A DNA stretch of 64,000 bases from Agelas oroides (lineage: Eukaryota > Porifera > Demospongiae > Agelasida > Agelasidae), in NCBI GenBank assembly GCA_949130485.1, contig OX422203.1, positions 3,315,178 to 3,379,177 of the forward strand, given 5' to 3'. The notes under the pieces were generated by a model. That model searched no databases, was not told the origin of the DNA, and saw only the letters and a program-made list of their open reading frames with translations. The position numbers and the translations under genes are program-made. This document shows, in pieces, positions 2,650 through 24,700 of the stretch. Every line of letters begins with the position of its first letter. Positions within the stretch are counted from its first letter, which is position 1.

Positions 2650-4400
2650 ATTACGAGCTGAACGGTTCTTGTCCCATGCAAATCGGCTGCGTAGAAGCTG
2701 AGATCCGTAACTTGAAAGGGGATTTGCACACGAAAATTTTTCCGATCCTTTGTAATGGAAAACGTCGTCTATAGTTCATCATTTACGGTATGTTCACGTG
2801 GTCTACAGTAGGTGCTATATCTCAGGAAAGGCTGGATGGATTTGAATGCAACTCGTACCAAATTGATGGTCGTTAACTCTGCATTTCAACTGTCGTGATT
2901 CCGTACCCGTAGACGAAGCTAGAAGCACAGATAATGCAACCTGACTATGAGGTATGTGAGCTATTGATGTGTAGCTATGTGCTTTATGGGATGAACCAGT
3001 ACACTGTACAACTGGGTAAAGCTCACTCGAGCTTAATCAGACTTGTACTTTTTACATTTGTTCTCTACTACAGTGCTTTTAAATGCTGCCAGCAATTGGC
3101 ATTGGGGCTATAAGCTCTAGAAGGGAGAAGCGTAAGTTGTTATTAGTAATGCATGTCAAGTAGGTGCTTTCCCCTAGCTGCTGACCAATAGATAGCCTCA
3201 GTTGTCATTAGTAATGGCATTTCAAGTAGTTACTTACCCCTAGCAGCTCTGTAGTAACTGCTCTTGTACTGCTGGTTGTGGTTCACTTCCAACAAATGTG
3301 GTGCATTTCCCAGACGTCCCTGCCTCAAATCCATTACTGCCCCCTTCAGCAACAATACTCAATCTTCTGTGAAATCACTCTTTTTGACACACAGTAACAT
3401 GAATAGTGGAACAGTTAGCATCTAGCTGCACTGTTGCTTTTTATGAGAATCATCCTCTGTATGACAATGCTGTTGCACTCTTCTTGTTAATCTATATACT
3501 GTACATGACATTACGTAAAGTTCAGCCTAATAATTTTCTTTGGACACTTTATCCCTGTTCACTTAGTGACATATAGTTAATTTCCATGGGTACTGCATTG
3601 ATTTTGCCTTGATTCAAATAGTGTGGCGTGAGCGTATCAGCATGCATATGCTTGTACAAGTACAAGCGTACACTTGCTAGTACTTGCATACTGAGTGTTG
3701 ACACTTCATGCTTATGCTTCCTGTTCCCACTCATTTGAAGCAAGGTGAAATCCACAGCACATCAGATGTTTGCCAGAACCATGTGTGAGCACATGCATGA
3801 ATTTTGCTCTTGTACCTGCATACATGTATCCTATTAGGTTTGTAACCAAGACTTTCCTATTCCTTCTCTCATAGATAGTCTGCGATGGAGGACTGAAAAG
3901 TTGGTTGTCAAGATAATGCAATTGTAGTTGCACAAGATGTTATTTATTTACACTGCAGAACTTTTGTGGCTTGCAGGCACGTGTCCCTTTGTCAGTATTA
4001 CTGCAATGTGGCTTTGTGTTTTATGTACTGGTTCACAACAATAAATGTGTTGAACAAACAGTACTTGTGCAAACTTACACTAAAGATAATGCTGCTAAAA
4101 ACAGTCGTTCTGGGGGCGTTCGGGGCCAAGGATTTCGAATATAGCAGTTGGTAGTTCGTATCGCTTCTACTTTTTTGTTTACGCTCATTTAAAACGTGAA
4201 AAATTCGCCGGGAAAAACATACTTTACCCAAACTTTTGCCAACTAGCACCAATTGAGAGTACAGGCATTGAGCATCCGAACGATATATAGTTTATGGGGG
4301 TTCTTCTCACTAGCACGCAGCACCTTTGCTCGAAACGTCGATGGTTCGCGTGACCACTTCCTGCATATTAATTGAACGGAAAAATTTCATGCCTACGCGA
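2650..4400. other. no gene recognised
   Basis: Nothing supportable beyond short low-complexity stretches and a tandem duplication of about 50 bp (about 3134-3180 and 3200-3247, both ending cccctagc(t/a)gc). Confidence 0.5.
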
Positions 4401-4404
4401 CAAG

Positions 4405-5094
4405 CTTCCGGAATCGCTAAGAGAAGACAGACTGCAGCGTAGAAGAGAGCGAGAGAGAGCTCGTCGTGCCTCTGAAACCGCGGAACAGAGAGAGGAACGG
4501 CTGAGAGTGCGAAGAGCAAGAGATAGGGCTAGACGCGCCGCTCAGACTGCCGAAGAGAGAGACGCCAGATTGCGGCAAATACGCGATAACCGACGTCAGA
4601 GTCTGGCAACTGAAAGCGAAGAGGAGAGAGCAGTGCAGATGAGGGACAGGCTGGCCTCTGAGACTGAAGAGGAGAGAGCAGCCAGGCTACAGCGGATGAG
4701 TGCCAACCAACGTCACAGGTTGGCCTCTGAGACTGAAGAAGAGAGAGAGGCCAGACTACAGTGTAACAGGGAAGGGCAAAGAGGACAACAGTCACAGCTG
4801 CCTTTGTTTGAACAGCCCTCTGTTCAGGCTAAGATGCGGAACTTTCATGCAGAGATTGCTGCGTTGGAAATGCAGAAATGTACTACATGCTCGGAGGCGT
4901 TCCCAGGCCTTCAGCTTCGCTCACACTCTACTGAGTGTATGCGCTGTAACCGAGACAAGCATGTGCCAAAGCTGTACTCATCCATGAACAACATGGACCC
5001 TGGCCCTAGCAATAACGCCGTGAATTGCGCATCCATCGCATTCGAGCTCACGCTCGCCCCCAACAATGCTGTGCATTCACCTAGTTTAGTGTAG
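4405..5094 (+). pseudogene. Helitron N-terminal fragment, longer copy
   Basis: An open frame of about 230 codons with the same Arg/Glu-rich repeats as the 1581-2324 copy, then an intact Cys-rich segment (CTTCSEAFPGLQLRSHSTEC, then MRCNRDK) followed by YSSMNNMDPGP. This Cys finger plus NNMDPG arrangement precedes the Helitron-like N domain in animal Helitron proteins. Immediately after it the frame enters the non-homologous tail CASIAFELTLAP, also found in the other copy, and ends at 5094. Rep (HUH) and PIF1-like helicase domains are absent. The in-frame ATG at 4372 may not be the original start; similarity to the other copy begins near 4405. Likely a non-autonomous derivative. Confidence 0.7.
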
Positions 5095-5739: not shown

Positions 5740-6125
5740 TTATATTTAGATCTGCAAAATTACTAGCCTCTGCTTCTGGCTCTTCTTCGAGCCTCATTTC
5801 AGACATCTTTTCTGAGAGTGCCCGCTGCGCCTATACTTTTATTGGTTACAACTCTATATATGGGTATAAACATCTTAAAACCTACTCTCAGTGCGACCGA
5901 TTATGTGGTTCCTTTATCAGGGATGCCCGAAATGCTCCAGAACTCAACCGTCACCTGGAAGATGATATCTATTATATCTCTACTGTGTAAACTGAATTCC
6001 CTCTCTTCAACTATACCTCTAATATTCAGTTTTAACTTAATTATCTTATGTTGTATGTTGTAATTATACTCATCTGCTCCTCTTGTTGGAGTGTTCAATT
6101 ACAATTACAATTACAATATTGCGCA
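5740..6125 (+). repeat. possible retroposon 3' end with (CAATTA)n tail
   Basis: AT-rich sequence that ends in three to four units of caatta at about 6096-6118, a tail type seen on some non-LTR elements. No reverse transcriptase or promoter is recognised. Tentative. Confidence 0.25.
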
Positions 6126-6639
6126 TCGGCGCCATCCCTGCATAGAGAGTCTACCGACTCTCTGATAGAAATTATTCAGGTACAGGAAGTCACGTAGAGC
6201 TACATTCCAGTGTGTAATTAACGCAATGAACTTTTCTACAAGCTAGCTCCAGCCAGCAATGGCAGAAACGAACTGGTGTCACAGGATATTTTGCACCCCA
6301 GGAAATCTGGCACCCCCACGCAATTTTTCCTAGGAAAATGGGCACTCCCTGTGAGGAGGCATAGGGAAAGGGACCTATGGAATTCAAAGGTCAAGTTGTC
6401 CTTGTTTTTCGACATATTTAAATGCTGATTGTTGTAAACTAGAACTTATGAATTTGAAGCCAATTGTTTTATTTTCTATTGTTGTATAGCCAATACATTT
6501 TTTCAGGGTTCAAAGGTCATCTTGGACTTAATTGACCTTTGAACTTACTAGGTCCCTTTTCCCATGCCTCCTCACTCCCTCAGGAAATCTGGCACCCCCT
6601 ATTGTGGTATTTTAGGCACCCCCCGCATGCCTATTATCC

Positions 6640-6780
6640 TAGGATATCATGCACCCCCTAGCCATTTTCCTAGGATATCATGCACCCCCTGCCTATTTTC
6701 CTAGGACATCATGCACCCCTGCCTATTATCCTAGGACATCATGCACCCCTGCCTATTTTCCTAGGATATCATGCATCTCT
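6640..6780 (+). repeat. short tandem repeat, ~31-bp unit
   Basis: About five units built on cctaggatatcatgcacccc followed by tgcctatttt, with single-base variants between units. Degenerate related motifs extend left to about 6275. The units abut without unique spacers. Confidence 0.8.
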
Positions 6781-6894
6781 CCCCTCCGCCCCTCCCCCCC
6801 ACCCCATCATTACCCTAAATTTCAGTAGGATATTATTGGTTAATTAATACACAAAATATGTTACGATTATGTACACAGTAAAATTTATCTGTTA

Positions 6895-7352
6895 GTTCAG
6901 CCATCGTTTCTTGCCTTTTCCTCTGCATTCCTGACAACTCCATGACACAGTGTCACTTTCGCCAGTTATCCCTACACAGCGATAGTGAAACCACTGATCA
7001 CATTCAACCATATTGTCCTTTCCTTGGTCTGATATAGTGATGTCCGGTGAAGAAAAAGGTCGAAGAGGAAGTTGGCCACATGGATTGCTTCTTTGGTTGG
7101 GGTAGCACAAGCTTCTGGCCACTTAGTGAAGTAGTCACTACTGCAGACTCTGTACAGCTGACCATCTCTGACTCTGTAGTACTTAGAGCGCTTCAGAATC
7201 ACTCCTTTGTCCTGCTTTGAGGCACATTCGGGATATTTGTCATGCATAAGGTATTGGAGAGTTTCATCGTACATGCGCTCCTCCTCTGTTTCTCCATTGC
7301 TCTCTGTCTCAAAATCCGAGTGGTCAGCAGGTTGTTCGGCGGGTAGTTCCAT
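6895..7352 (-). pseudogene. gypsy-type integrase and PHD-finger remnant
   Basis: From the start at 7352 the frame gives an acidic leader, then a segment ending YRVRDGQLYR, typical of the region before an integrase zinc finger. It then jumps directly to DYFTKWPEACATPTKEA from the integrase core; the zinc finger and first catalytic region are missing. In another frame (to about 6895) follows the C-terminal half of a PHD-like finger (CDQWFHYRCVGI and WSCQEC). Ty3/gypsy-derived genes that combine integrase and PHD are known in invertebrates. This is an internally deleted, frameshifted fragment. No LTRs are seen nearby. Confidence 0.6.
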
Positions 7353-7434
7353 TTTTTGGGGGAGTAAAAGTACTCATTGTTCTTGATACCACACCTTTTA
7401 TCCTAAGCTGGAAACGTCGAGGTACGAAAACGCT

Positions 7435-7888
7435 AGCCTCGTTCCCAGGCCTACCCCGTTTTTTGTTCTTCGGTTTGCGTTCAATATAATACACGGAGGC
7501 GGAAGAGCACGAAAAGCGGGGAAGGCCTGGGAACACTTGTCACGTGAATGACGTCTGGTGGACGCGAGGTGGACGTAGGGGGGGCGGTGCCCAACTACAA
7601 ATACCGTACTAGACTTCATCATCGAGCGCTTCAACGATAGCCCGGGCCCCAGACGTTCACGAGATCGACAGTACTTGACTTCACCGGTAAGAAACTCGCT
7701 CTATGGTTTATTACACACGAATTTGTAGTTGGGCACCGCCCCCCCTACGTCCACCTCGCGTCCACCAGACGTCATTCACGTGACAAGTGTTCCCAGGCCT
7801 TCCCGTTTTTCGCGCTCTTCCGCCTCCGTGTATTATATTGAACGCAAACCGAAGAACAAAAAACGGGGTAGGCCTGGGAACGAGGCTA
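7435..7888. mobile_element. long-TIR foldback element (TAGCCTCG family)
   Basis: 454 bp with arms of about 167 bp (7435-7601 and 7721-7888), almost perfect reverse complements, ending tagcctcgttcccaggcc. A perfect 9-bp duplication cgaaaacgc flanks it (7426-7434 and 7889-7897). The 119-nt centre is unique. Non-coding. A diverged relative lies at 31717-32139. Confidence 0.92.
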
Positions 7889-8155
7889 CGAAAACGCTTC
7901 AATCGCTGTCACTGTTTGCGTTCGCACGCTTACGCTCGAGGATGCCAAATTTCCGGGGGGAGGTCAAAGGTGGAGCCACATAATCCTACAATGGGGGTGC
8001 CGCATAGCCTCGTCCCCAGGCCACTCCCAGATTTTATCTCGCAGCTGTGGAGAAAACTCGGGAGAAGGCCTGGTACCAATACTACGTCACGGACCGGAAA
8101 TGGTGGACTCGGTTAGTATGTAATGTGGACTCGGTTTCATAATGATGGCAACGTG

Positions 8156-8696
8156 CCCACGCAATATGCGGCCAGTACAGCAAGCGCTCGAATAGTAAAG
8201 TTTGCCCAGGCGTTTTGCCGACAGCTACGGACTTCGCAGGTACCAAATCGCTAACGAAGGGTGTGTAGACGTAAGTGGAAGGCGTTGTGCGTGTACGTCG
8301 ACTGAGGAAAGCAGCAGGCTGAGGGCAAGCGCGTCGCTCCGTGTCAAAACAAGTCTCTGCACTCGGGCCACTACCCTCAAGGACGGAGAAACAGATGGCA
8401 AGGCTACTTGTAGGTATGTACAAGTTATCTAAGCCGTTCAGCCCTGGTTCTGAGTCTCCTTGAGGATAGTGGTCCGAATGCAGACACTTATTTTTACACG
8501 GAGCGACGCGCTTACCCTCAGCCTGCTGCTTTCCTCACTGAGGACCTCAGTCGACGTACACGCACAACGCCTTCCACTTACGTCTACACACCCTTCGTTA
8601 GCGATTTGGTACCTGCGAAGTCCGTAGCTGTCGGCAAAACGCCTGGGCAAACTTTACTATTCGATCGCTTGCTGTACTGGCCGCATATTGCGTGGG
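8156..8696. mobile_element. palindromic insertion in the left arm
   Basis: Left and right halves (about 8156-8390 and 8452-8696) are reverse complements that start cccacgcaatatgcggcc. The right arm of the giant element lacks it and reads directly across the equivalent point near 18790. Two mirror-image open frames in its arms are a consequence of the palindrome. Confidence 0.8.
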
Positions 8697-9209
8697 TGCG
8701 GTGGCCCGGTCATCTCACTTCTAACTTTGCGATATCACATTCGATATTCGGTCAGTGCGCAGTCGATTTCCGTTAGTGCGTTTCCACTTTTGCGTTCCTG
8801 ACAGCGCGTTTCTGCTTTTGCACTACAACCTTCGCACTTACGGTATTGCGTTCAATTCGGATTTACGGTAACACGTGCGTTTAATTGTTTGTTTACGTTT
8901 CCATCTTGCGCTTCTACTGCTACCTGCTGCCAAGTAGGAGAGGAGGTCAGTTGGGGGGGGGGGGGGGGGGGAAGGGTTGATTAAGTCGCTGCATGATTGC
9001 ATGTAATGAGGCTTGAGCAGCAGTGCATTCCCAATATGAAATAATAATGTCTAGGTTGTGCCTGCCAATTCCTCAGAAACCCACTAATTAAGCCATACAG
9101 AAACATCTGCAGAGACTTGCTGAGTTGTCCTATTGCAAAACTTGATGTAGCCACATTCTATAGCCAGCCGAAGTTGTTTGTTGGATCAAAGCTAACTGTC
9201 AAAGCAAGT

Positions 9210-10075
9210 GCTACGATTTGCGCTCAAGATTTGGTGTGCACGGGCAGTAGCCCCTTCAAAAGTGTAATTTAAAGTTTGGTGTGTGTACATGGAAAATAAT
9301 CGAGTAACGAGCTTGGTATATCAGCGTGCGTAGTGAGGACCTATTCGTAAGTAAAAAGCCTGCTGGGTGGGGTGAGTTTGTGATGCTGGTTACTCGCCTG
9401 TATTGGAGCTTGAAGGTTGAAAGTAGACATGTGGGTAGGCAACTTGTCACTCCACATTTGTACCAAGTTGGGAGGGGAATGGGTGTGGATTAGCATGCAT
9501 CAAAGGAAGAGCATTTCACCTTATTTTAACCTACTGCGTATGCAGCACAAGTGGGTCTTTGAGCTCAAGATTTGGTGTGCATGGGCAGTATTCCCTTCTG
9601 AAGTGTAATATAAAGTTTGGTGTGTGGACGTGGAAAAGAATCGAGTAACGAGCTTGGTGTATTAGGGTGCGTAGTGAGGACCTATTCTTAAATAAAAAGC
9701 CTGTTGGGTGGGGTTAGTTTGTGATGCTGGTTACTAGCCTGTATTGGAGTTAGGAGGTTGAAAGTTGACGTGTGAGTAGCCATCTGGTCACTCTAGGTTT
9801 GTACCGAGTTGGGTGGGGAATGGGTGTGGCTTAGCCTGCATCAAAGCGAGAGCATTTTACCTTATTTTAACCTACTGCGTATGCAGCACAAGTGGGTCTT
9901 TGAGCTCAAGATTTGGTGTGCATGGGCAGTAGTCCCTTCTGAAGTGTAATATAAAGTTTGGTATGTGGACGTGGAAAAGAATCGAGTAACGAGCTTGGTG
10001 TATTAGGGTGCGTAGTGAGGACCTATTCTTAAATAAAAAGCCTGTCGGGTGGGGTTAGTTTGTGATGCTGGTTGT
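9210..10075 (+). repeat. 341-bp tandem repeat, left array
   Basis: The landmark aaagtttgg recurs at 9271, 9612 and 9953, exactly 341 bp apart. Units include gtagtgaggacctattctta and end near gtgatgctggtta. About 2.5 copies. Confidence 0.92.
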
Positions 10076-10195
10076 GTTACTGGTTAGTTCCAAGGATTTA
10101 TACTTTTAGACCACAAGATATTCTGTAATGAGATCAGGTGTACCCCCATGTTCTTTCTGTTTCAGATAAAGGGAGGTGAAGTTGAAAGTTCAATC

Positions 10196-13138
10196 ATGGA
10201 AAGTAAGTGCTTAGGTATAAGATATTTTGTTGGTGTTAGCACAACCTAGTTTAGTCTAGAAAGTAAATTTTGCCCATCCATCCATACATGCCGACTGTCT
10301 ACGCATATGTTGGTCCATTGTTGTGTGATTGTATGCCTGTTGGATTAAGTACATGACCATGTGCAACCTGTTGCTATGCAGGCCTAGCTAGCTAATTTTT
10401 GTAGCCAGTTGTTACTTATTGTTCAACAGTTGTGGCTGCTCCCAATTTTTATTTTCTAAGATTGAACAGTTAAACATGTCAAATTTAGAATTTGTAGGAT
10501 GAAATCCATGACATTCTTCAACTTCTCTTCATAGGTGACCTGGGTCATATGACCTTAAGAGGCATAATTGAAAAAGTTGCTCGTGAACAGCAAGGTTTGC
10601 GTTTTTGATTACTTTTTCAGTGCTGTATGCAGCAATGATTTGTTTCTACATGCATAATTTCTGTAGGTAATTCTCAACCATCCCAAATGCCTCGTCATCG
10701 AGAGGCAGATGCCCTCTTACAACGCTATCGAGGCTTACAAAAGGCTGCAAAGCAACCTCTGAAAGTTGAGCAGATAAAATGCCGACTGGTATGCACTAGT
10801 ATGTGATGATGTAAATACACTGTGGAAATATTGCATATGGAATTACATACTACTGTTGTGCTCACACAGATTGATGTGTGTCTGATGGAGTTGACACCAA
10901 CAAAGCTTTGTTGGAAAAGGGCAAGCCAGCTGGTTAAGGTTGGGGGCTTCTTGGACCATGAGGACTTGAATGCTACAAAAAAGAGATGTGCTGATGCCTT
11001 AGACCTCCATGAGAACCCTGACAGGCTTGTATTGGTGGTCAAGGGAGCAACGGTTGACCAGAGTGCCTTTGTATCACTAGGAAGTTTTATGGCATCATTT
11101 ACTGCACAGCAAAGAGCTCACTTTTTTTTTGGAATTGGCATAAAGGTCCTGAATGTGTTATGATTTGTATCTAACATTGGATGCTACTTTCACATCATTT
11201 TTTTGCTATGATAATACAGGACGAGGAATGCTGTTCACATGAGACTAGTTCGAAAACATTATGGGATCGGTCAAGGATGGGGTACCGTGAGAGAGAGGCA
11301 GGAACTAGTCCAGAGGACTCAAGTACAAGTCGCAGATCCAGGACATCTGTGTGTATAGCCAAATTGTTGTTAACTTCTGTTACTTACATTATTTTACTTT
11401 ATTCTTATTAGACACGTTTGTCTCAAAGGAGCAGCAGTTCCAACCGCTCCCGGTCCACCTCAAGGGAACACCAGCCACCTCTTCCAAGGGCAGGTCAGTG
11501 TTGATGTGTACTGGAAGTTAGTGGCTGGACCTAAGAAGCCTGAGTATGCTGGTATAGATCATGCAGCAGGATGTAACTAACTAGGTCTACTGGTCGTATA
11601 CATTGCTTGTGTCCAGACTCCACATCATGAAACTCATCTGTATTATGACTGGATTCTAAAACTATTCTATCTCACTGTGTAGCAAATAAAGGATTGCCAG
11701 AGTACACTTACACCCAGTTGTTGTCCGCTACTGATAACTGTGCGAAAACCAATCTGTTGGGTGTTGGTGGGTTTGGAGAGGTGTATTTGGGTAAAGTTAG
11801 ATCGACACCAGCTGCAGTGAAGTTCTTTAAAAAGGTAATGTTTTTCTTTTAACAACACATTACATGGCAAAACATGATATCCACTAGTATAGCGCTATTA
11901 CTCATTCTCATAACTTACACTTTGTGGCCTCTGGAAATACAGGGCAGCCAGGAGCTGACTAAGAACCTGGATGTGTTGTGTCAGGAAGCAACAATTCTCT
12001 CAAAGTATGTACATGCTAATTCATGATACTAATGAATGAGAAGAGGTGTGATTTGTAATTGTTTCAAATTTACAGGTACAGTCATCCAAATCTTGTTATT
12101 TTGCTTGGGGTATGTCCCGATCCAGAACACCCTGCTATTATATATGAATTTTTGGAGAATGGGTCATTGTATGACCTTCTGTTCAGTGTGTCATCAAAGG
12201 TATGAGCCATACTAATTACTACATTCTGCAGTGTGTGTACATATTTGATTCTGCTCAGAATGATTCACCTCTCACTATTTAAGGAACACCGAAAGCTCGG
12301 AGATATTCAAATGCGATGCAACATTCTACTGCAGGCTGCACTGGGCCTATCATACCTACATTCTGAGGAGGGAGGATTAAGTGCTGCTGTACACCTTGAT
12401 GTGAAGAGGTCAGAAAGAAGTGAGTATGCACTCAAGTGTCAGTTGTTATTTATAATATTATCTTTGTATTGCAGCAACAATATCCTGCTAGATGGAGCAA
12501 TGCGAGCCAAGATTGGTGATTTTGGCTTTGCAATGCAGCTGCCAGAGAAAACAGGTGGCCAGAGCTTCATTCGTACCTCTATGCTGTGTGGGACTCCTGG
12601 TTATGTAGCACCCGAGTTTCTCTCAGGGGAAATGGGGGCCCAAGTGTGATGTGTTTTCATTCGGTGTGGTAAGAGCTGGAGGCAAACTTCTGTACTTGTA
12701 TACTCAATCATGGTGTAATTGTACATTTGTAGGTTGTCCTTGAAACATATAGCGAGCTGAAAGCGTATGATGCCAAGAGGGATATCTCAATGTTGGTATG
12801 TACTGCTTACAATGATTAAGATGATTGTACTAAATGCTATTATGAATTGCATATTGTAGCATGAACTGTTTGATGAGGCTTTTTACAACTTGGAGCTCTT
12901 CAAAGGTCTGTGTGGGCTAAGGCTCCGGAAAACCACCACTGTATGTAACATTCCATACCAGAGCCTGTGTCATCTGGCTGAGGGTTGTGTTGCAACCAGG
13001 CGCAAAAGGATCACCATGTCAAAGGTCAGATAATAAACACTTCATTGCCACAATCATGTACATTAACTATTTCTTGTGCTTTAGGTGGTGGAGGTTCTTG
13101 AAGAGGTTGTGCATCTGAAGCTGGTTGTCTTGCAGTAA
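10196..13138 (+). CDS. IRAK/RLK-Pelle-like protein kinase (transposon cargo)
   Basis: Exons: 10196-10202, 10535-10594, 10667-10788, 10870-11145, 11220-11348, 11412-11493, 11683-11834, 11943-12004, 12076-12199, 12284-12408, 12475-12668, 12733-12795, 12860-13024, 13085-13138; all GT-AG. Phases agree except for one base. Predicted product is about 537 residues. The first ~225 residues are unrecognised and end in an Arg/Ser-rich linker. The kinase domain follows: glycine loop GVGGFGEVYLG, Lys in AAVKFFKK, HLDVK in place of HRDVK, SNNILLD, DFG, and VAPEF. No death domain is recognised. Exon 12475-12668 has one extra base, most simply in the G5 run at 12634-12638, which puts a TGA in frame just after the APE motif. 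This may be a real frameshift or a sequencing error. The ATG lies about 120 bp inside the left arm. Confidence 0.82.
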
Positions 13139-13540
13139 AACACTTACAAACTGGTCACGTATTGTCATATCATTAACTTTGGAGTGTCATGGTCTCAATC
13201 TACAACAGCTAGGCATCTTGTACACGAAAACTTCATAACCATTTGACATATTATTCAATGACTGATGATCATAAACTCATCTCCAAAATATTGAGTTATT
13301 ATCTACAAGAGATAGCAAACACTGAAGCACAAGATTGCTATTTAAAAGTGTTGTGCAAGTTAAACTAGCAGGGTACAACAACTTAGGTTGTAGACTTTGC
13401 AGCTTCAAACACCACTGGATCCACTGCATGGTCTTTTCTGTAGCAGGTCAATTAACATAGTCAAACAGCTAGATTTGCCCCATTGTGTCCTAAAGATACC
13501 TGATAACTGAGGAATTGTGTACAAATCTTCGGGTACACCT
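13139..13540. other. spacer, no gene recognised
   Basis: AT-rich sequence between the kinase stop and the degenerate integrase copy. It probably contains 3' untranslated sequence of one or both converging genes, but no polyadenylation site can be assigned firmly. Confidence 0.4.
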
Positions 13541-14000
13541 ATCCAATATTAGAGGTCAAATTTGTTTATTGGCCAGTACGTATACATCACACAATGCAAG
13601 ATTACATACCTATGCTCTGTGTTCTGCAGCTGAAATTCACCATCTGCCCAAGTGACCAGGAGTACAAAAGGACAATAAGTATCATTGTTATGTTTGTGGT
13701 GTCTTCACATATACTTTAAACAATCTTTATCCACCAGGAAGTCTTCTGTCTGTACAGAATTGACCATAGCCCTTCTAAGGAGGTTAAAGTATAATTTATA
13801 GGAGTGCTTTAAAAGTACTCAATACAATGGCAGACAATTCACTTACTGTACAATGTACGTATGGGTGTCCTGTTTAACAATCATTATGTATGTAGTGCAT
13901 GACAAGTGACATACCCATCTATGCATCCAGTGATAGGAAAACCATATGGTGAGAGCTTTTCATATGCATCTACATGCCACACAAAATTTGGACCCTGTAA
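13540..14000 (-). pseudogene. degenerate second copy of the integrase
   Basis: Exon-like blocks parallel the intact gene upstream on the same strand: about 13916-13997 corresponds to its first-Asp exon (VWHVDAYEKLSPYGF), about 13738-13790 to the exon with the catalytic Glu (LWSIL and WW), and about 13620-13690 ends in a TEHR-like exon. The large middle exon with the second Asp is absent and frames are disturbed. A tandem partial duplication, not a working gene. Confidence 0.6.
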
Positions 14001-14449
14001 TCAATAGAAATGCTAGCTAGACATTTCATCAGCAACTATTTAAACTGAGTTATATTCATGCAGCTTGTATATTGTTAGAAAGTCATAGCATTCAACAACT
14101 GTATGGAGTAACAACTTGTTCAGGTAGATACATTTCAGGCATTTCTGCTTACAAAACAGTACACCTTGAGGGTCCAAATCCTCAAAAGCTGCCGTACAAA
14201 TTTCCTTGTACAAGTGCACGTTTAATGATTACACTTTACAAAAACATTATAGCTGTATGCAGACCACTTAATAGTCAAGTTGTACTTGGTCTGTAGCAAC
14301 TTCCACATAGCCACAGCAAATGTTAGGACCTTTTAGTTAGCTAACAAATGTTGACAGTTGCATGACAAGTTCATTGAAGTTTGTTTTTCTTACTAGTAGA
14401 TTGTTAGTGCAGGCTGAGTATGTCAGAAACAGCTCACAATTCTCAACAC

Positions 14450-16546
14450 TTAATGCATGTGCTGGATGAGAATATCAAACACAGTGTCACAATTCACAAC
14501 AGAAATAGAGTCTTGATGAAAACCAAAGTGCACCATTAACAGTGCATTGGCAGCTTCACGGAATTCCTCAGGGTAGAACAAAGGTTTCTGAGTGTAATAA
14601 TTTATAGCTGCTGCTTCAAATACATCTTTGTCAGCAGAGCACAAGTAGCTCCTTGTTCCTAGAAAAGCCAAAACAATGAAACACAATGCATCATCACGAG
14701 ATGGTTTTGTAGAGGTACCTTGTAGCTGAGGCAGCCTAAAAAGGTCATCGGGGATTCCATCAGGGCACTTGGATAGTCGATTGCAACGAAGTCTGTGAGT
14801 ATTCCACAGATCTGACAATTCTTTGATGTCTTGTTCTATCATCCCGGCATACACGTATGCAAGGCAATGTCTGTTGTATGAAAAATAAGTATGTGACATA
14901 ATTATATAACCATTTGTCACACATACATGTACCTGTGCTCTGTGGATCTCGGATTAAGTTTTCCTTCTGCCACTAGACTCTGCAAAAAAAAATTATACAC
15001 AATAAAAACATTCACACATTAACACTAACAACATTTGGAAGTACCTGGAACTTGTCAATCCACCATCCTGTTTTACACTTTCTCAGGATAGACCATAGTC
15101 CTTCAATCCTCTGTTCCAACAACATGAAAATCTAATAATGGTGGATCCAAATGCTGACAAAACTTTTCACCTACAGTGTTGGTTGTAGACTTTCCATATT
15201 TGTATGACTTAACCCCATGCCACTGATCCTGATGCCAATGCCTAAGAGCCATGTGAGATGTAGCCACCATACAATTTTCTGTGCCATAATCAGATCTCAA
15301 CATGGTTGGGCAACCTAGTGATGATGATGTACTACACATTATGTATGATCCCACTGAATAAGATGATAAATCACCTTCACATTCAGCTACAGTGGTCAGA
15401 TAATAAGTTGCAACAAGTTTAGGGTCATGAGTTGTGGGCGACACTTCCATCCACATAATTCGTCGAGAATATCTATAGTGGAAACCAATGTATAACTGCT
15501 GCTCCTATACAAAGTTTGTATCATTTTACATACCCATCTATACATCCATGAATGGTGAAACCATATGGGGCCAATTTGTCATACATGTCAAGGTGCCACA
15601 CAAAGTTTGGACCCTACAATATAAACAACAGTAATGCACAATCGGTCCAAATTTTGCTATGTGTTAGGTCTGGTAGCAGAAGTTACTGCATTTTCTGTCA
15701 CAACAGAGGATGATACCAATAGCAGCTAATGCCAACTACAATGTTGTATTTTTGGGTATCATGGAGTACAGTATGTATCAGTCATTCTCAAGTGCTTTCA
15801 CAAACAAGAAGACCATTCAGTATCACTGGGGAGCAACTTTAAATATGCCTGTTTTTGGAAAATTTAAACTTGCACATTTTCTACCCCCACACATGCCTCA
15901 ATACCATGTGTATGTGTAACTACAAGAAGTTATGTCCTGACAAGTAACTCTTCAATAGTTTATGTTGCTCTCAAAACAAGGTTCTCTCAAGTACCTTGTT
16001 TATGTAACATCGCCTGTGCAACTGCTTCCTCTTTCGATGATCACGTCCTTCAGGATCAAGCACAGCCAACAATATTCTTACTGTTTCCCTAAGATGCAAT
16101 GTTGATCATTATCTGTTGTTATGATTGTAACATCAATGTTTTCCATACTGACCTTTTAACAACAATATTATATTTGAGTTTCAGTAAATTCCACATCAAA
16201 CGATACCCAATCATTTTGTTGGATGTTTTCAACTCTTCCTAAGTGATTCAAGGACGTGCAAAGTATAACAAACATATACTTAATTCTCAACAAAGTCATC
16301 GTTTACTTACTATTATTGCAAGACATGCTTGCAGTATATTGGAGTGTGATTCATTTTGTTTTCTTCTGAGGCCAAGAAAGCTGAGTCTTCTCTTTAGCCA
16401 TGATATGCTACACAGAGATTTTCAAATTATGTCAAAGCAATGAATCTTTAACGCAACTAATTCATGCCCACCTTCTCTTTAATCCATGGTACAAACAAAG
16501 GTAACTGGCAATCACATAGTACGGCTTGCCAAGATGAAAGTACGTT
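14450..16546 (-). CDS. DDE/rve-type integrase (candidate transposase)
   Basis: Exons in gene order: 16546-16472, 16407-16311, 16238-16153, 16088-15995, 15613-15534, 15472-15175, 15110-15045, 14979-14933, 14870-14450; all GT-AG, phases consistent, no internal stop. Landmarks: YFHLGKPYYVIASYL; a helix-turn-helix-like KRRLSFLGLRR; LAVLDPEGRDHRKRK; catalytic Asp in VWHLDMYDKLAPYGF; YSRRIMWMEV; second Asp in MLRSDYGTEN; Glu in RIEGLWSIL; C-terminal WNTHRLR and PDGIPDDLF. This layout is that of an integrase core-domain family common in marine animals and fungi, which I name only from memory. The true first exon lies above 16546 and is unresolved; a hydrophobic frame at 16600-16720 does not join in phase. 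The intact triad supports activity. Confidence 0.82.
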
Positions 16547-16949
16547 CTAAATAAATCTGTTGTTAAAAATATGGTAACATTGTAACTCAATTCGTTGTAA
16601 TACATGGATGAAAACGTACACTATATGGTTAGACATACCATCATAATGATCCTCAGCAATAGACTTAACCGGCGAACACACCAGCAACAACACCAACACT
16701 ACCTTCAAATTTACCATCCTATGTAACATACAATAAAGATAATGTTTCATAAACAGCATGTAGTGTCAATATTTTCTACTATTAACTGCATTTCTGTTCA
16801 TCTTTCAATAATGCACAATTTCCCAATGTAAGGTCCACCACTGTAAAATGGTCTTCCACTTAACAAGTCTGACCACATTCAACAATTGTGTGCATAGCCT
16901 GACTCCGGTAGACAACATGGGCATTTGAGTTAAGAGAAATTACTCATCC

Positions 16950-18240
16950 ATTGATACCCGCTAAGCCACGCCCATTCCCAGGTACAAACCTAGAGTGACC
17001 AGATGGCTACCCACACGTCAACTTTCAACTTCCTAACTCTAATACAGGCTAGTAACCAGCATCACAAACTAACCCCACCCAACAGGCTTTTTATTTAAGA
17101 ATAGGTCCTCACTACGCACCCTAATACACCAAGCTCGTTACTCGATTCTTTTCCACGTCCACACACCAAACTTTATATCACACTTCGGAAGGGACTACTG
17201 TCCATGCACACCAAATCTTGAGCTCAAAGACCCATTTGTGCTGCATACGCAGTAGGTTAAAATAAGGTAAAATGCTCTTGCTTTGATGCAGGCTAAGCCA
17301 CACCCATTCCCCACCCAACTCGGTACAAACCTAGAGTGACCAGATGGCTACCCACACATCAACTTTTAACCTCCTAACTCTAATACAGGCCAGTAACCAG
17401 CATCACAAACTAACCCCACCCAACAGGCTTTTTATTTAAGAATAGGTCCTCACTACGCACCCTAATACACCAAGCTCGTTACTCGATTTACTTCCACGTC
17501 CACACACCAAACTTTATATTACACTTCAGAAGGGACTACTGCCCATGCACACCAAATCTTGAGCTCAAAGACCCATTTGTGCTGCATACGCATAGGTTAA
17601 AATAAGGTAAAATGCTGTCGCTTTGATGCACACTAAGCCACGCCCATTCCCAGGTATAAACCTAGAGTGACCAGATGGCTACCCACACGTCAACTTTCAA
17701 CTTCCTAACTCTAATACAGGCTAGTAACCAGCATCACAAACTAACCCCACCTAACAGGCTTTTTATTTAAGAATAGGTCCTCACTACGCACCCTAATACA
17801 CCAAGCTAGTTACTCGATTCTTTTCCACGTCCACACACCAAACTTTATATAACACTTTGGAAGGGACTACTGTCCATGCACACCAAATCTTGAGCTCAAA
17901 GACCCACTTGTGCTGCATACGCAGTAGGTTAAAATAAGGTAAAATGCTCTCGCTTTGATGCAGGCTAATCCACACCCATTCCCCTCCCAACTTGGTACAA
18001 ATGTGGAGTGACAAGTTGTCTACCCACATGTCTACTTTCAACCTTCAAGCTCCAATACAGGCGAGTAACCAGCATCACAAACTCACCCCACCCAGCAGGC
18101 TTTTTACTTACGAATAGGTCCTCACTACGCACCCTGATATACCAAGCTCGTTACTCGATTCTTTTCCATGTACACACACCAAACTTTAAATTACACTTTT
18201 GAAGGGACTACTGCCCGTGCACACCAAATCTTGAGCGCAA
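16950..18240 (-). repeat. 341-bp tandem repeat, right array
   Basis: The landmark aaactttat recurs at 17168, 17509, 17840 and 18181 (spacings 341, 331, 341). About 3.7 copies against 2.5 on the left, so the arms have changed copy number independently. Confidence 0.92.
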
Positions 18241-18880
18241 ATCGTAGCACCTGCTTTGACAGTTAGCTTTGATCCAACAAAGAACTTCGGCTGGCTATAG
18301 AATGTGGCTACATCAAGTTTTGCAATAGGACAACTCAGCAAGCCTCTGCAGATGTTTCTGTATGGCTTAATTAGTGGGTTTCTGAGGAATTGGCAGGCAC
18401 AACCTAGACATTATTATTTCATATTGGGAATGCACTGCTGCTCAAGCCTCATTACATGCAATCATGCAGCGACTTAATCAACCCTTCCCCCCACACTGAC
18501 CTCCTCTCCTACTTGGCAGCAGGTAGCAGTAGAAGCCTAGGGGTACAATTGGGTAGCAGTAGAAGCGCAAGATGGAAACGTAAACAAGCAATTAAATGCA
18601 CGTGTTACCGTAAATCCGAATTGAACGCGATACCGTAAGTGTTATTTAGCGAAGGTTGTAGTGCAAAAGCAGAAACGCGCTGTCAGAAACGCAAAAGTGG
18701 AAACGCACTAACGGAAATCGACTGCGCACTGACCGAATATCGAATGTGATATCGCAAAGTTAGAAGTGAGCTGACCGGGCCACCGCACGTGGGCACGTTG
18801 CCATCATTATGAAACCGAGTCCACATTACGTACTAATCGAGTCCACCATTTCCGGTCCGTGACGTAGTATTGGTACCAGG

Positions 18881-20620
18881 CGGGGTTCACTAAGTTCACC
18901 CAACTCCATGTGGTGACGTCATAAACTGTAATGTGCGCATTGCGCGCGCAGAGCGCCATGGAACTGGATCCAGACTAGACATGTATATAGCACATTAGTC
19001 TCGCAAGCCACACCTCTCTGCAAAGGGTAAATAGCTCCTAGATCCTCGAGTCGAGTTTGAGTTGCTGGAGGGCATGCAGCAACAAAACACCAGTTGAACA
19101 AGACATCAGGTAGTCTGTATTGTATTCAAAGAGATTGTGCAACTTCAAGAAATTATGTAGCTAATACTGGACTCGTGTAAAAACCCCCAACAGGTTCAGT
19201 CAGTATTTTAATATTGAATACTGTGATCATGTTCGTCCCTAGCTTGTGAGCTAACCTGTTACCTACTAAGACTAAGACTTTCCTACTAAGACCAAGGGGT
19301 AGTCACATGCCGTGTGTTCAAGCGTTTGCGACTGGGATCAAGGTTTTTGATTCGCAAAAAGTGTGCTTAATTGCTTGATCGTTCCCTTCTGTGTTCTTGA
19401 TCCATTGATTTGAGCAGTTCAGAGGTCACCTTGATCAGCCCCCAAAAAGGGCTTTGATCACTTGATTCAATTTTGATCCCGGTCGCAAATGCTTCTACAT
19501 GGGACATATAAGTGACTACCCCTTGTAAGACTAAGGTCCCAGTTAGACAGGATTCCTCATGTTTTTGTGGGTTACTATGGCAAAGTGTAGCATCCTTCCC
19601 AGACTCTCAGTGTATCCTCACTTGATTTATTGCAAGCCTATTAGTGGAGCCCGGAAATGAGTTAGGCCATGTAGTCAAACTGGGGGCAGAGAGGCAATAG
19701 GTGATAGGGAGGAGCAAGGTAAAATTAAAGAAGATGTAAATGTTCTTCAGCACTAAACTGTCGGCATTTTGAGATCAAGATTTTAAATGCAATTATGACA
19801 TTCTTTGTGTAGTAAGCAACCATTACATTTGACGAGACATGTCCCTCAGAACATGAGACATTTGTGAGAGTATGGCAATGAGACTACTTTGGGAGTACAC
19901 TTCAACAGATTGCACTGTGCATGATTCAGTTTGCAAGAGCAGTTTTCTCTGAAAATAGTGTATGTACGCTAGAGTTCAGTATTCTTATTAAAAATTATGT
20001 TGCACATCTTTGGACACAATACAGACTCTGTGATTTTTTCTGGTGTTTTGTTTTTCTGCATGCCTGCCAGCAACTGTTTTGCATGACTTGCTGAGGGACA
20101 AGTTTTTAGTATCTTAAATAATGCCGTCAAGTGAAACCGTACCCCAAGATGCTCACACAAAATTTGTTCTTGTACTCAGATTGTAGTAAACATTTAGGTC
20201 ATCACATGTAAACTAGAACTTACTATAAAAAATCTGCACATGATCACTAGTATAGACTGGTGAAGCTAGACCTGAGCGTGAAAGACTAGGCTAGTAAGTC
20301 ACACAGCATGTTACTGAGCTAGCTGTTGCACTCACAAGCTACAAAAAAGGCATGAGAAAAGTAGTGAAGCTCTTCAGGTCCAGAAATTATGCTGAATTTA
20401 GTTCACAGAGTTACTGTAAGTATAAAACTACGACCCGTAAAACTATAGCAAGCTGTAAGTGAAAGTTTACCTCACAAGGGACTTTATACTGAGCTTCTTC
20501 GGGTCCAATTAACATGTCTGGATCCAGTTCCATCTTCGATCCGCGCGCGCAATGCGCAAGGAATAAACATTACAAATTGTGATGTCACCACATGGAGTTG
20601 GGTGAACTTAGTGAACCCCG
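18881..20620. mobile_element. nested TIR element in the right arm
   Basis: Starts cggggttcactaagttcacc and ends with its complement. The inverted ends match over about 105 bp, including a gcgcattgcgcgcgc block. A duplication taccagg flanks it (18874-18880 and 20621-20627); it may be 8 bp if the last G is counted. The uninterrupted sequence is preserved in the left arm near 8065-8080. The interior has no recognisable transposase. Confidence 0.9.
19295..19529. mobile_element. small foldback element inside the nested element
   Basis: Ends aaggggtagtcac and gtgactacccctt. Inner segments gcgtttgcgactgggatcaa and ttgatcccggtcgcaaatgc are also inverted. About 235 bp, non-coding. Confidence 0.7.
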
Positions 20621-21003
20621 TACCAGGCCTTCTCCCGAGTTTTCTCCACAGCTAGCTGCGAGATAAAATCTGGGAGTGGCCTAGCGCCTGGGACGAGGCT
20701 AGGTGCCGCATATCCTAGGATTATGGGTCTCAGTACTTTCACGTCGTTTCATCCCAGGCTCCTCCCGAGGAGCCTGGGTACGAGGCTATAACAGCTCACA
20801 TCCTTGGCACAAACGTGCTGAGACTCTGGAGGGTTTAGTGGAACTAACATCTTATCAGGAAACTTTGCAATTCAATCTTCCACAGTAGCTAGATTGTAGC
20901 TCATTGAGGGCCATTTGGAAGATTAAAGGCTCATTTTGGAAGATTAAAGTAATTTATCTACACGAGTCCCACCTAGTATAGTTTTGCCTATACATACACG
21001 GAG

Positions 21004-21580
21004 GAGGTGTCACGTTAAATTTGGACCCCCGTAAAATACGTTCCCCCCGGAACGAATATTTCAGAACAACCGCGAAATATTTGGACCTACCCTGAAAAAA
21101 TTGTTCCCCTTTCCATGTGTGCAAGTGTACCACCGTACCAAGCTGGAAAGCCGCTTGTTTAACTTGTGCCGATTGTGAGTAGATGTCCTATGTCTATTTC
21201 AAGAATTGATGTGATATCTGTAGCTGTGCAACAATGCCAGAGGCTACAACAGCGTCGGCATCCGATTCGGTAGCGTGGAGATCGCCGAGAAGATGAACTA
21301 TTGATTCACCGTATTCAGAATGGAAGCTACCTTCCTGGCTTTAGTTAGACAAGTGTTTTAGCCTTCACAATTGTATGGTGAGCCTGAGCAGCACCTTCTT
21401 CATCAGACGTGAACACTTTGGATAACTTGCTTGGATCTATGGGGGTCAGAATATTTCGTACGGAGTCCTTATATTTCAGAAAAATAAGTTCCAGGGGGTC
21501 CATATTTTTCGGCTTTTACTGAAAAATTAGTTCCGGGGGGTCCATTTTAGAGGGGGTCCGTTTTTATCATGACAGACCTC
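21004..21580. mobile_element. TIR element with ggaccccc repeats
   Basis: Inverted ends gaggtgtcacg and catgacagacctc. Subterminal short repeats of the tttggaccccc / gttcccccgg type occur in opposite orientations at the two sides. No coding region. Confidence 0.55.
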
Positions 21581-21764
21581 AAAAACCATAAACTGTCAAA
21601 ATTGGGGGGTGGGCGCTTGCCCGGGACAATACGGTACCTGTACTGTGGGACGTGGGAACGAGGCTAGGCTAGGGACGTAAGGCTTTGGCGCCGCGCCGGC
21701 TTGTCAGCAGCTCTAACTATTTGGTCCCGCACAATCAAATCACTCAAGCAGACAACTCGTGGCG

Positions 21765-24700
21765 ATGTCGCGGAAAGGGTTCCAGCAACTCAAATCTGAC
21801 GACGACTGGGATGACGACTCACGAGAAAGCCACTTGGTGACTGTTCGTAAGAAGTGGACTAAACAGAGGTATAATGAGGATAAATGAGCAAGGAGACCTA
21901 TCATGGCTATGCTCGGGGTCCTGGCTTTGCCAGGCTACCCCTAACCCCTGATTATGTGAATCTGCAGCTTGGGTTGGTTGAGTTTGGCTTGAGAGACTGC
22001 TAGCAAGTTGGTAGCCTAACTAACCCCTCCTATTTTTGGCCAACTGATTTGGTAGTCTCGGAACCAGACCCTCGAAAAATCGAAAAGGAGGGTCTGGTAA
22101 ACGGGGCGGGGTGGAAGTGTACACTGCGGAATGTTATTAATTGCTGAACCTTCCGTAGCCAGTTCGAGCTTTCTGCTGAACCAGACACTCGCAAAAGTGT
22201 TCTAATCTTTCCCGCTTGGTGTTTACAGATTTCTGTAGCGAAGCTAAACGTGAAGACGGCTCTCGTGCGGTTAGCATTTCTAATAAATGCACATCAGAAT
22301 GCTAATCAAAAGCCAATCGGAAGTGCGCCTGCATACCGGGTGCAGTGTACACTTCCACCTCAGCCGATTTACCAGACCCTCCTTTTCGATTTTTCGAGGG
22401 TCTGGTTCCGAGACTACTGATTTGGTGCCATACCACACCAGTCCCACTGCAGATAGCTTTATAATTTCAGGTTTTCACATGCATTTAATTATGCTGCAGA
22501 GTAGTTTTCACGCTTAGCATCATAGTCATTGATGTTAAGAATACGTAACTGCGCTTAGCTATTGGGTAGGATTTAGGTCTTAATGCTCGGTCATTATTCT
22601 GTATTCAAGCAGCAATTGTTTGTCTGTCATATTCAAATTAAACTAAAATAAATTTTGACCTGAAAAATTGAGTAGACGAAACAGCGGTATACGAAATTGG
22701 AATAGACGAAACATCGGTAGACAAAACATGAGTAGACGAACCAGGAAGATACCATGTTAAGGTGGGTCTGGGGTGTGACTTGAAGAATTTTTGCTACATT
22801 TTTTTGGTACATCTGTTGGTACATCTGTTGTCTTTGGACCGCCAAATTATCTCCTGCTACAGGCTGTAGGCACATGAAAAGACTAGTAAGTATTCAGAAA
22901 TCAACAAAATCTCCCAGGAATACGTTTTGCTATAAGTTGGATGGGTGGAGTTTTAGCGAAAATGCCAGAGTTAATGGCAGTGCTGTGCTCCCAGCTTTTT
23001 TGCAGTTTCAAAATACTCCCACCGTGAAAAATAGTGTGAATTGTGCCGAAAATCAACCTTGTTCATCATCAAGCCTAGCCTCATTCCCAGGCCCAAAAAG
23101 GAGGAGGAGGAGAAAGGGCCTGGTTTCAGTCGTTCGTGCATGAGCTTAATTATCTGTAATTTAAACATGTGTTGATCAGTGTGAGGGTGCCAATGACACC
23201 TTCAAAGTCACATGGTCGATTGCATGACGTTGCTATTTACCGTATCAAACCAGCCTAGCTAGCTAGCCTGAGTAGCTTTTATCTCAGCGCCTTGGCCAAC
23301 AGCCTTGCCCTGATTATCAGCGAAGATCTCTAGCAGAAAGAAGCGTAATGGAAGCCCAAGTTACCTCTTGCAATGATTTTACCGGTAGGTAGCCTCTTCT
23401 TCTTGTCAACCGACTCCACGGGAGCTCACACTTTCCCTTTATAGCTTCAGATCGGTTGCTGGATGAGTACAATCAAGTGGGTTTCTTTGCAGGCCATATG
23501 CTGCTATCATAAATCTACAGACAGTGTAACGCTTAGTATCAATATTTGGCGTCATGAGTGTATGGGAGTGTATCGATAGCAGGCAGTGGCGATGGAATTC
23601 CACCGTGATTAAGCACATGCATGCCCGAAAGGCTGAAACCAGCCCCTTTCTCCTCCTCCTCCTCCTTTATTTCGGGCCTGGGATGAGGCTACATGAAGCC
23701 AGATGCAAAGGGAGTGGGGGGGGGTCTTACTTTGAGGTCACTTTGACACTATAAATGTACAAAATTGCATTTGGAGATGCCCCCTTACAGTAATTGATTA
23801 GCACTTTAATCTAACCAAGCATTCAACTCACTAGTGTGGGGCTCGCTAATGCTAGCCACAATTATGTGAACATTTAGAACACTCCTAATAATTACAATAC
23901 TTATCTCTCAATAGTATTTTGGTTTTCAATTTTTAGGTGCTGCTTCTTTGTGATTCTCCCCTTAACTGTGATTATTGTGCTGGTACTAGTGGCTGTGGTC
24001 ACAGGGGTGGCAGTACACTTTGCACAATCAGGTAGGAAGGGGGGCACATTCACAGGGCCATTGATCAGGTGAGGAGGTGTGACCTATCCACTCTTACATT
24101 GTGACAAAGCTGTCGGATGATTTTGCAGTAATACCTAATCACGCAACAGGCAGTCAAAACCATCTGTGTGTATGTAGCCACTTAAATGACTACTGCACTT
24201 GCCATCAATACTGCGTTTTGCACAGAAAAGATACAGTCTACATGCAGACCTCAGCCTTCTCATGTAGTTTATTCTACCTCCAAAATAGACAACTAAAAGT
24301 TCAGTTTGTGTAAACTATGATTACTAAACAGTTCGCAATACAGCTGTAATTCAGTAACAAGTCCACGAAATTCCGGGAAAAAATCCTGGCTCATTACTGA
24401 ACAGTTTTATGATTTAGCTCAGCCATAACTAGCTCAGTACTGCTAGTAGCACTTATATAGTTATACGAATAGAGAAGTAAAGAACGTGTACAGAAATTAA
24501 CAGAGTTCTTTGACGTTCTGCCCATATTTGTACCAACAATTGAAAATCGCTCAAAACTGAAAGCGGTCCATAAGGCACTCGCAAAAACACTTGTATCTCA
24601 GAGAGTATAATATATCGAGCTAGAAGATAAAAGCTCAAATTCCACGGGGAATATGAAGCGTACAATACTGTGAAAAATGGCCTCACGGGCTCAAACATAC

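Follow-up and report, generated by a model that had tools for sequence, protein, structure and literature searches.

In the sponge Agelas oroides, whose genome measures 259 Mb, an apparent giant transposon is three mobile elements nested within one another, and the largest of them is a 10.1-kb transposon that holds a spliced integrase gene and a spliced kinase gene. The locus lies in a stretch of 64,000 nucleotides, C21:3315178-3379177, which is called the window here and in which position 1 is the first letter. An earlier note made from the letters of this stretch had proposed a single 12.7-kb transposon at 8005-20701 with a 9-bp target duplication, arms of tandem repeats, an intact integrase and a kinase passenger. 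The giant transposon with 9-bp duplications is unsupported, and a lineage of kinase-bearing integrase transposons is supported. With good confidence we read the locus as a nest of insertions around a member of that lineage, with the kinase as a conserved accessory protein of the transposon.

Nested structure of the locus

Exactly two copies of the 9-bp sequence GGTGCCGCA, at 7996-8004 and 20702-20710, are present in the window (expected 0.27; two occurrences were reached by 3 of 100 shuffles), and both are directly abutted by matching ends, as the earlier note had described. The duplication is assigned to a foldback miniature inverted-repeat transposable element (MITE) because intact copies of this MITE elsewhere in the genome have 9-bp duplications of their own, agaaaacat and tacagcatg. 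These two copies (L061 and L062) are palindromes with ends TAGCCTCG, located at C2:11655866-11656696 (831 bp) and C20:5986397-5987223 (827 bp). A genome search with positions 8005-9000 gave at least 102 matches (40 of 1039 candidates scored); among the scored matches the window alone extends beyond query base 701, and many end exactly at query base 692, which corresponds to window position 8696. The uninterrupted MITE L061 has the target of the integrase element, CGTGGG, once and therefore serves as an empty site for that element. TACCAGG, duplicated around the third element at 18874-18880 and 20621-20627, is likewise single in L061.

The nest was built by insertion of a MITE of about 830 bp with a 9-bp duplication, and then of a 10.1-kb cut-and-paste transposon, probably of the IS3EU/GingerRoot kind, which entered the MITE and left a 6-bp duplication. 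The right end of the MITE also received, before or after that second insertion, another element of about 1.7 kb. The 9-bp duplication of the MITE in the window, L061 and L062, together with its long inverted ends, could suit a Mutator-like element or a member of another group: no transposase was identified for it, and 9-bp duplications are also made by other groups, for example AcademH (PMC10045372). The coordinates of the features are shown in Table 1.

Table 1 Mobile elements, target duplications and genes at the nested locus (window positions)
Feature	Position	Strand	Basis or remark
Target duplication of foldback MITE, left, 9 bp, GGTGCCGCA	7996..8004	.	sequence repeat and ends
Foldback MITE, left and central part (palindrome)	8005..8696	+	intact copies L061, L062
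Target duplication of integrase element, left, 6 bp, CGTGGG	8691..8696	.	single in intact MITE L061
Kinase-bearing integrase transposon, 10,091 bp, ends TGCGGTGGCCCGGTCA...TGACCGGGCCACCGCA	8697..18787	+	
Left arm	8697..10073	+	341-bp tandem units at 9217-10073 (2.5 units)
Pelle/IRAK/RLK-like kinase gene as modelled, spliced	10687..13138	+	frame shift near 12,630; earlier exons possible
Remnant of a second, diverged integrase copy	13498..14001	-	
rva_4 DDE integrase gene as modelled, spliced	14450..16391	-	several exons, GT-AG introns; first exon(s) probably further upstream
Right arm	16981..18787	-	341-bp tandem units at 16981-18241 (3.7 units)
Target duplication of integrase element, right, 6 bp, CGTGGG	18788..18793	.	
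Foldback MITE right end, first piece	18788..18880	+	comparison with intact copies
Third element, inverted ends CGGGGTTCACTAAGTTCACCC, within MITE right end	18881..20620	.	flanking TACCAGG
Foldback MITE right end, second piece, severed by third insertion	20621..20701	+	comparison with intact copies
Target duplication of foldback MITE, right, 9 bp, GGTGCCGCA	20702..20710	.	sequence repeat and ends

Copies of the integrase element

The sequence at 8697-18787 is also found elsewhere in the genome without the MITE. Its exact 16-base end has 10 occurrences in the genome and the reversed control has none. Duplications of 6 bp flank three of the four copies with two ends (CGTGGG in the window, TCATGG on C8, CATAAG on C1), and the fourth, a 531-bp form at C8:1210631-1211161, is without one. 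The window element ends in TGCGG...CCGCA and the C1 copy has TGTGG, and the window, C8 and C1 copies are all of the form TG...CA; in the relatives L064, L066 and L069 the ends read TATGG or TACGG, and next comes TGGCCC as in the window element.

The long C8 copy (3196455-3208199, 11.7 kb) contains arms, integrase and kinase in the same convergent (tail-to-tail) order as the window. The inverted arms with 341-bp tandem units that the earlier note had reported are present, and the association of arms, integrase and kinase is supported, beyond what the note could show, by this copy, where all occur together again; the case that the note named as refuting, arms that never flank both genes, therefore does not hold. 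The C1 copy (L048 497-8925, 8.4 kb) has its 6-bp duplication, retains of the genes only 5' kinase pieces that are partly inverted, and is likely a non-autonomous derivative. Arm DNA is about 76-83% identical between the window and C8 (L046/L047), while synonymous sites of the enclosed genes are saturated; to judge from these identities the arms seem to be of more recent date than the genes, as would follow from exchange or homogenisation between families. At L050 (C12:7446.6 kb) a large single-exon host-type kinase open reading frame (ORF), at 3854-4669, is separated by about 2.4 kb from a solitary left arm, a proximity that is probably due to chance.

Integrase and kinase genes

A hand-spliced integrase peptide matched the Pfam family rva_4 (E 5e-31), and the residues D (WHLD), D (RSDYGTEN) and E (RIEGLW) were recognised by eye; the splicing script missed the splice preceding the E residue, and this splice was also judged by eye. 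The intact integrase of the earlier note is thus real and uninterrupted as far as modelled, with one of its splices placed by eye only. Named homologues among the 120 of 187 proteins listed came from two sponges, several cnidarians, a brachiopod, a mollusc, a sea cucumber, two beetles and a fish; most of the listed homologues are unnamed and none has a transposon name, and a PDB search with the integrase core gave no matches. DDE integrases join transposon ends at staggered cuts, which leaves duplications of fixed length. The 10.1-kb element would move by means of its own spliced rva_4 integrase, acting on the TG...CA ends within the long arms.

The kinase is equally a real gene, as had been claimed, apart from a frame shift that is taken up below. 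Its hand-spliced peptide matched Pfam Pkinase (E 3e-41), and the closest PDB matches include SymRK, BIK1 and IRAK4, the other best matches being plant receptor-like kinases (RLK) and receptor-like cytoplasmic kinases; with IRAK4/RLK kinases as its best sequence matches it belongs to the Pelle/IRAK/RLK kind, and it would be expected to have kinase activity. Between window and C8, four exon joints of the kinase are at the same place or at most one codon off in the script's best-ranked models. A database search with the N-terminal part of the kinase gave no matches among 1246 candidates, and the predicted fold of the N-terminal exon has a mean pLDDT (predicted local distance difference test score) of 42.5.

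Both genes were compared between the window and C8 over hand-picked ungapped pieces. The kinase has 57% protein identity and a ratio of nonsynonymous to synonymous differences (pN/pS) of 0.39 (95% 0.32-0.47; pS 0.78; 245 codons), and the integrase has 65% protein identity and a pN/pS of 0.29 (0.22-0.37; pS 0.77; 201 codons). Both genes look to have been constrained over a long time, with a choice of segments that favours the conserved parts.

Distribution of the integrase-kinase pair

A genome search with the integrase protein gave at least 146 matches (150 of 197 candidates scored), which comprised single-exon relatives of about 25-40% identity together with at least 30 multi-exon loci, as counted by eye, mostly of higher identity. 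Eighteen multi-exon loci, chosen for good scores and hence a non-random sample, were read: the window and C8 as a whole, L064-L066 over 6.5-7 kb, and L067-L079 over 2.2-2.9 kb outward from the integrase end. A convergent kinase adjoins the integrase in 16 of the 18, namely the window, C8 and 14 of the 16 loci L064-L079, although at L071 the kinase is a short fragment (E 2e-5). Pfam Pkinase was reached by the kinase pieces of seven of eight relatives tested, the exception being L077 (74 aa).

By all-against-all DNA comparison the 16 kinase-positive loci fall into nine families with no long DNA match between families: window; C8; L064/65/75/76 (96-98% identity); L067/68/70 (99.6-99.9%); L071/72 (95-100% in pieces); L066/73 (99% over 747 bp); L074; L077; and L078. 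For rough comparison, a set of 12 loci (L049-L057 and L061-L063; 1.2-8.2 kb each), fetched for MITE or arm matches or for one short integrase-DNA match, contained a kinase match in one case, L050. That nine families have a kinase next to the integrase suggests that the transposon gains something from the kinase.

Two of the families drew further attention. The 747 bp shared by L066 and L073 run across the integrase and kinase ends, with the terminus of L066 at 3960, and from this arrangement L066 looks like an internally deleted member of the L073 family. In the family labelled D, three loci share the kinase-integrase stretch at 99.6-99.9% identity, and the copies L083 and L084 on C15 and C2 are 99.8% identical for a further 1.4 kb.

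Origin and role of the kinase

The cargo kinases are of two kinds: the distance between those of families D and G is 0.35, and these two stand 0.70-0.80 from the rest. Identity of the window kinase is 45-64% with the kinases of families B, E, F and I, 39% with that of C and 26-27% with those of D and G; its host matches, mostly large single-exon ORFs, are 29-39% identical (103 of 541 candidates scored). The matches listed for the family-D kinase include the three loci of that family, some relatives at 48-86% and host kinases at about 24-35%. A recent origin by capture from the host was rejected because two whole-genome kinase searches, with the best candidates scored, gave no close host copy. 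Two distinct kinds of kinase would fit either one gain with deep divergence or replacement, or several gains. The D/G-type kinases L067 and L073 have, upstream of the kinase domain, a short segment that is Ig-like by eye (GTYRC.V and GQYRC.V), and host single-exon kinase-like ORFs form clusters at C7:9.20-9.56 Mb and C3:18.15-18.33 Mb.

Several observations weigh against a mobile lineage with a conserved kinase. The window kinase is interrupted by a frame shift near 12,630 and the C8 kinase is without N-lobe exons, which leaves both arm-bearing copies without a complete kinase as read; at C1 there was no integrase match, and the kinase is present as fragments only. No kinase was found within the 2-3 kb read at L069 and L079 (two of the 18 loci), and L066 retains only the kinase end before its terminus. 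L064, the only other family read with both ends, has a duplication of 4-5 bp in place of 6 bp. Reading outward in family D reached no end, and the near-identity of this family could reflect very recent mobility or, in part, segmental duplication. The kinases of D and G are only 20-30% identical to those of other families, and, with the D kinase no closer to those of other transposons than to host kinases, a single common gain is less than certain. Across eight families, some pairs of which were compared on only 26 positions, integrase and kinase distances are not significantly correlated (Mantel r 0.19, p 0.17). The hand-picked ungapped segments leave out the most diverged parts and so lower pN.

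The flush 9-bp duplication and the matching outermost ends would suit one giant transposon spanning 8005-20701, but the outermost 0.8 kb belongs to a separate MITE, which at other sites has 9-bp duplications of its own, while 8697-18787 has its own 6-bp duplication in the window and also on C8 and C1 outside any MITE. The C8 and C1 copies already refute the single element, and with the 1.7-kb third element counted separately as well, we give that reading next to no credence. Coincidental pairing in a kinase-rich genome is just as improbable: the genome has many kinase-like ORFs, some of them clustered on C3 and C7, and of the 12 loci fetched on other grounds one (L050) has a kinase match, but all of the 16 pairs among 18 loci are convergent, and the window kinase is closer to those of B, E, F and I than to any host match (at most 39%), although C is level with the host (39%) and D and G fall below it. 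Transposons do capture pieces of host genes, and a kinase picked up by chance as Pack-type cargo without a role would agree with the damage to the kinase in the window, C8 and C1 copies. Such a passenger is nonetheless unlikely, given the constraint between window and C8 on the compared segments, the convergent kinase across nine families, the retained intron positions and the lack of a near host parent gene among the best candidates of the two genome searches.

A more serious contender is that related transposons acquired kinases several times, each retained for a similar benefit, to which we assign a little less than an even chance. It draws on the two distinct kinds of kinase, the position of the D kinase, no nearer to other transposon kinases than to those of the host, the non-significant co-divergence of integrase and kinase, and fungal IS3EU elements with an alpha-kinase (PMC12730594); against it stands that the kinase has one and the same position and a convergent orientation throughout the 16 positive loci, for which one ancestral gain is the simpler explanation. 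Under the conserved-accessory reading, the kinase would help the element, most likely through phosphorylation of the integrase or of a host factor that restrains transposition or expression, a role that we propose tentatively, at somewhat less than even odds. With similar reserve the kinase may be regarded as a second core protein of an animal lineage like IS3EU/GingerRoot, selected since phosphorylation would govern transposition or protect the element against silencing by the host, to which rust-fungus relatives would have converged with an alpha-kinase. The pairing of kinase and integrase in nine families of a single genome, together with the fungal kinase, would make phosphorylation control of transposition directly testable with natural gene pairs. 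The locus also illustrates that nested insertions can mimic a new giant transposon.

Two further inverted repeats were observed near the nest. A second foldback element lies at 7434-7888, immediately to the left of the MITE (arms of 87 bp and 84 bp, 98% and 100% complementary), and a 76-bp inverted-repeat pair of 93% identity at 22052-22417 is perhaps another MITE.

Comparison with known transposons

The literature, searched by titles and the openings of abstracts with most subscription journals outside the search, yielded no animal transposon with a kinase. According to a meeting report, the conserved proteins encoded by cut-and-paste transposons number only one or two; the same report describes transposons with conserved host-derived proteins that are thought to regulate transposition (PMC3520738), which means that the notion of such cargo has precedents. 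It also describes Intons, which resemble the window element in being IS3EU-derived with extra conserved genes and differ in being fungal and having five to six proteins (PMC3520738). Ginger1 shares an integrase-type transposase but has 4-bp duplications, CCGG or CCGT, and OTU or Ulp1 partner domains (PMC2836005). The duplications seen here, CGTGGG, TCATGG and CATAAG, are neither of these. Polintons carry polymerase and capsid genes; at 6000-23000 no ORF exceeds 156 aa, spliced genes of these kinds not having been searched for. The likeness to Polintons is in the integrase-type transposase and the 6-bp duplications (PMC10045372).

IS3EU elements usually have 6-bp duplications, and their complete families always have TA...TA ends (PMC10045372); rust-fungus members have an alpha-kinase gene opposite the transposase, and also TET/JBP genes (PMC12730594). 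The window element shares with IS3EU the 6-bp duplications, ends of the form TNYGG, a DDE transposase and, as in the rust-fungus members, a kinase opposite the transposase. It differs in its TG...CA ends, on account of which it is not filed as IS3EU proper, in a kinase of the Pelle/tyrosine kinase-like kind in place of an alpha-kinase, and in its long arms with 341-bp tandem units. GingerRoot elements have 6-bp duplications and TA...TA or occasionally TG...CA ends, and relatives are supposed to exist in animals; the window element agrees with both the duplication and the TG...CA form of the ends, and the description, in the part available, names no kinase (PMC10045372). To call the lineage undescribed, as the earlier note did, was too strong, as its ends and duplication fit IS3EU/GingerRoot and an alpha-kinase has been reported in the rust-fungus members. 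The ends and the length of the duplication would place the kinase-bearing element in or beside the IS3EU/GingerRoot group.

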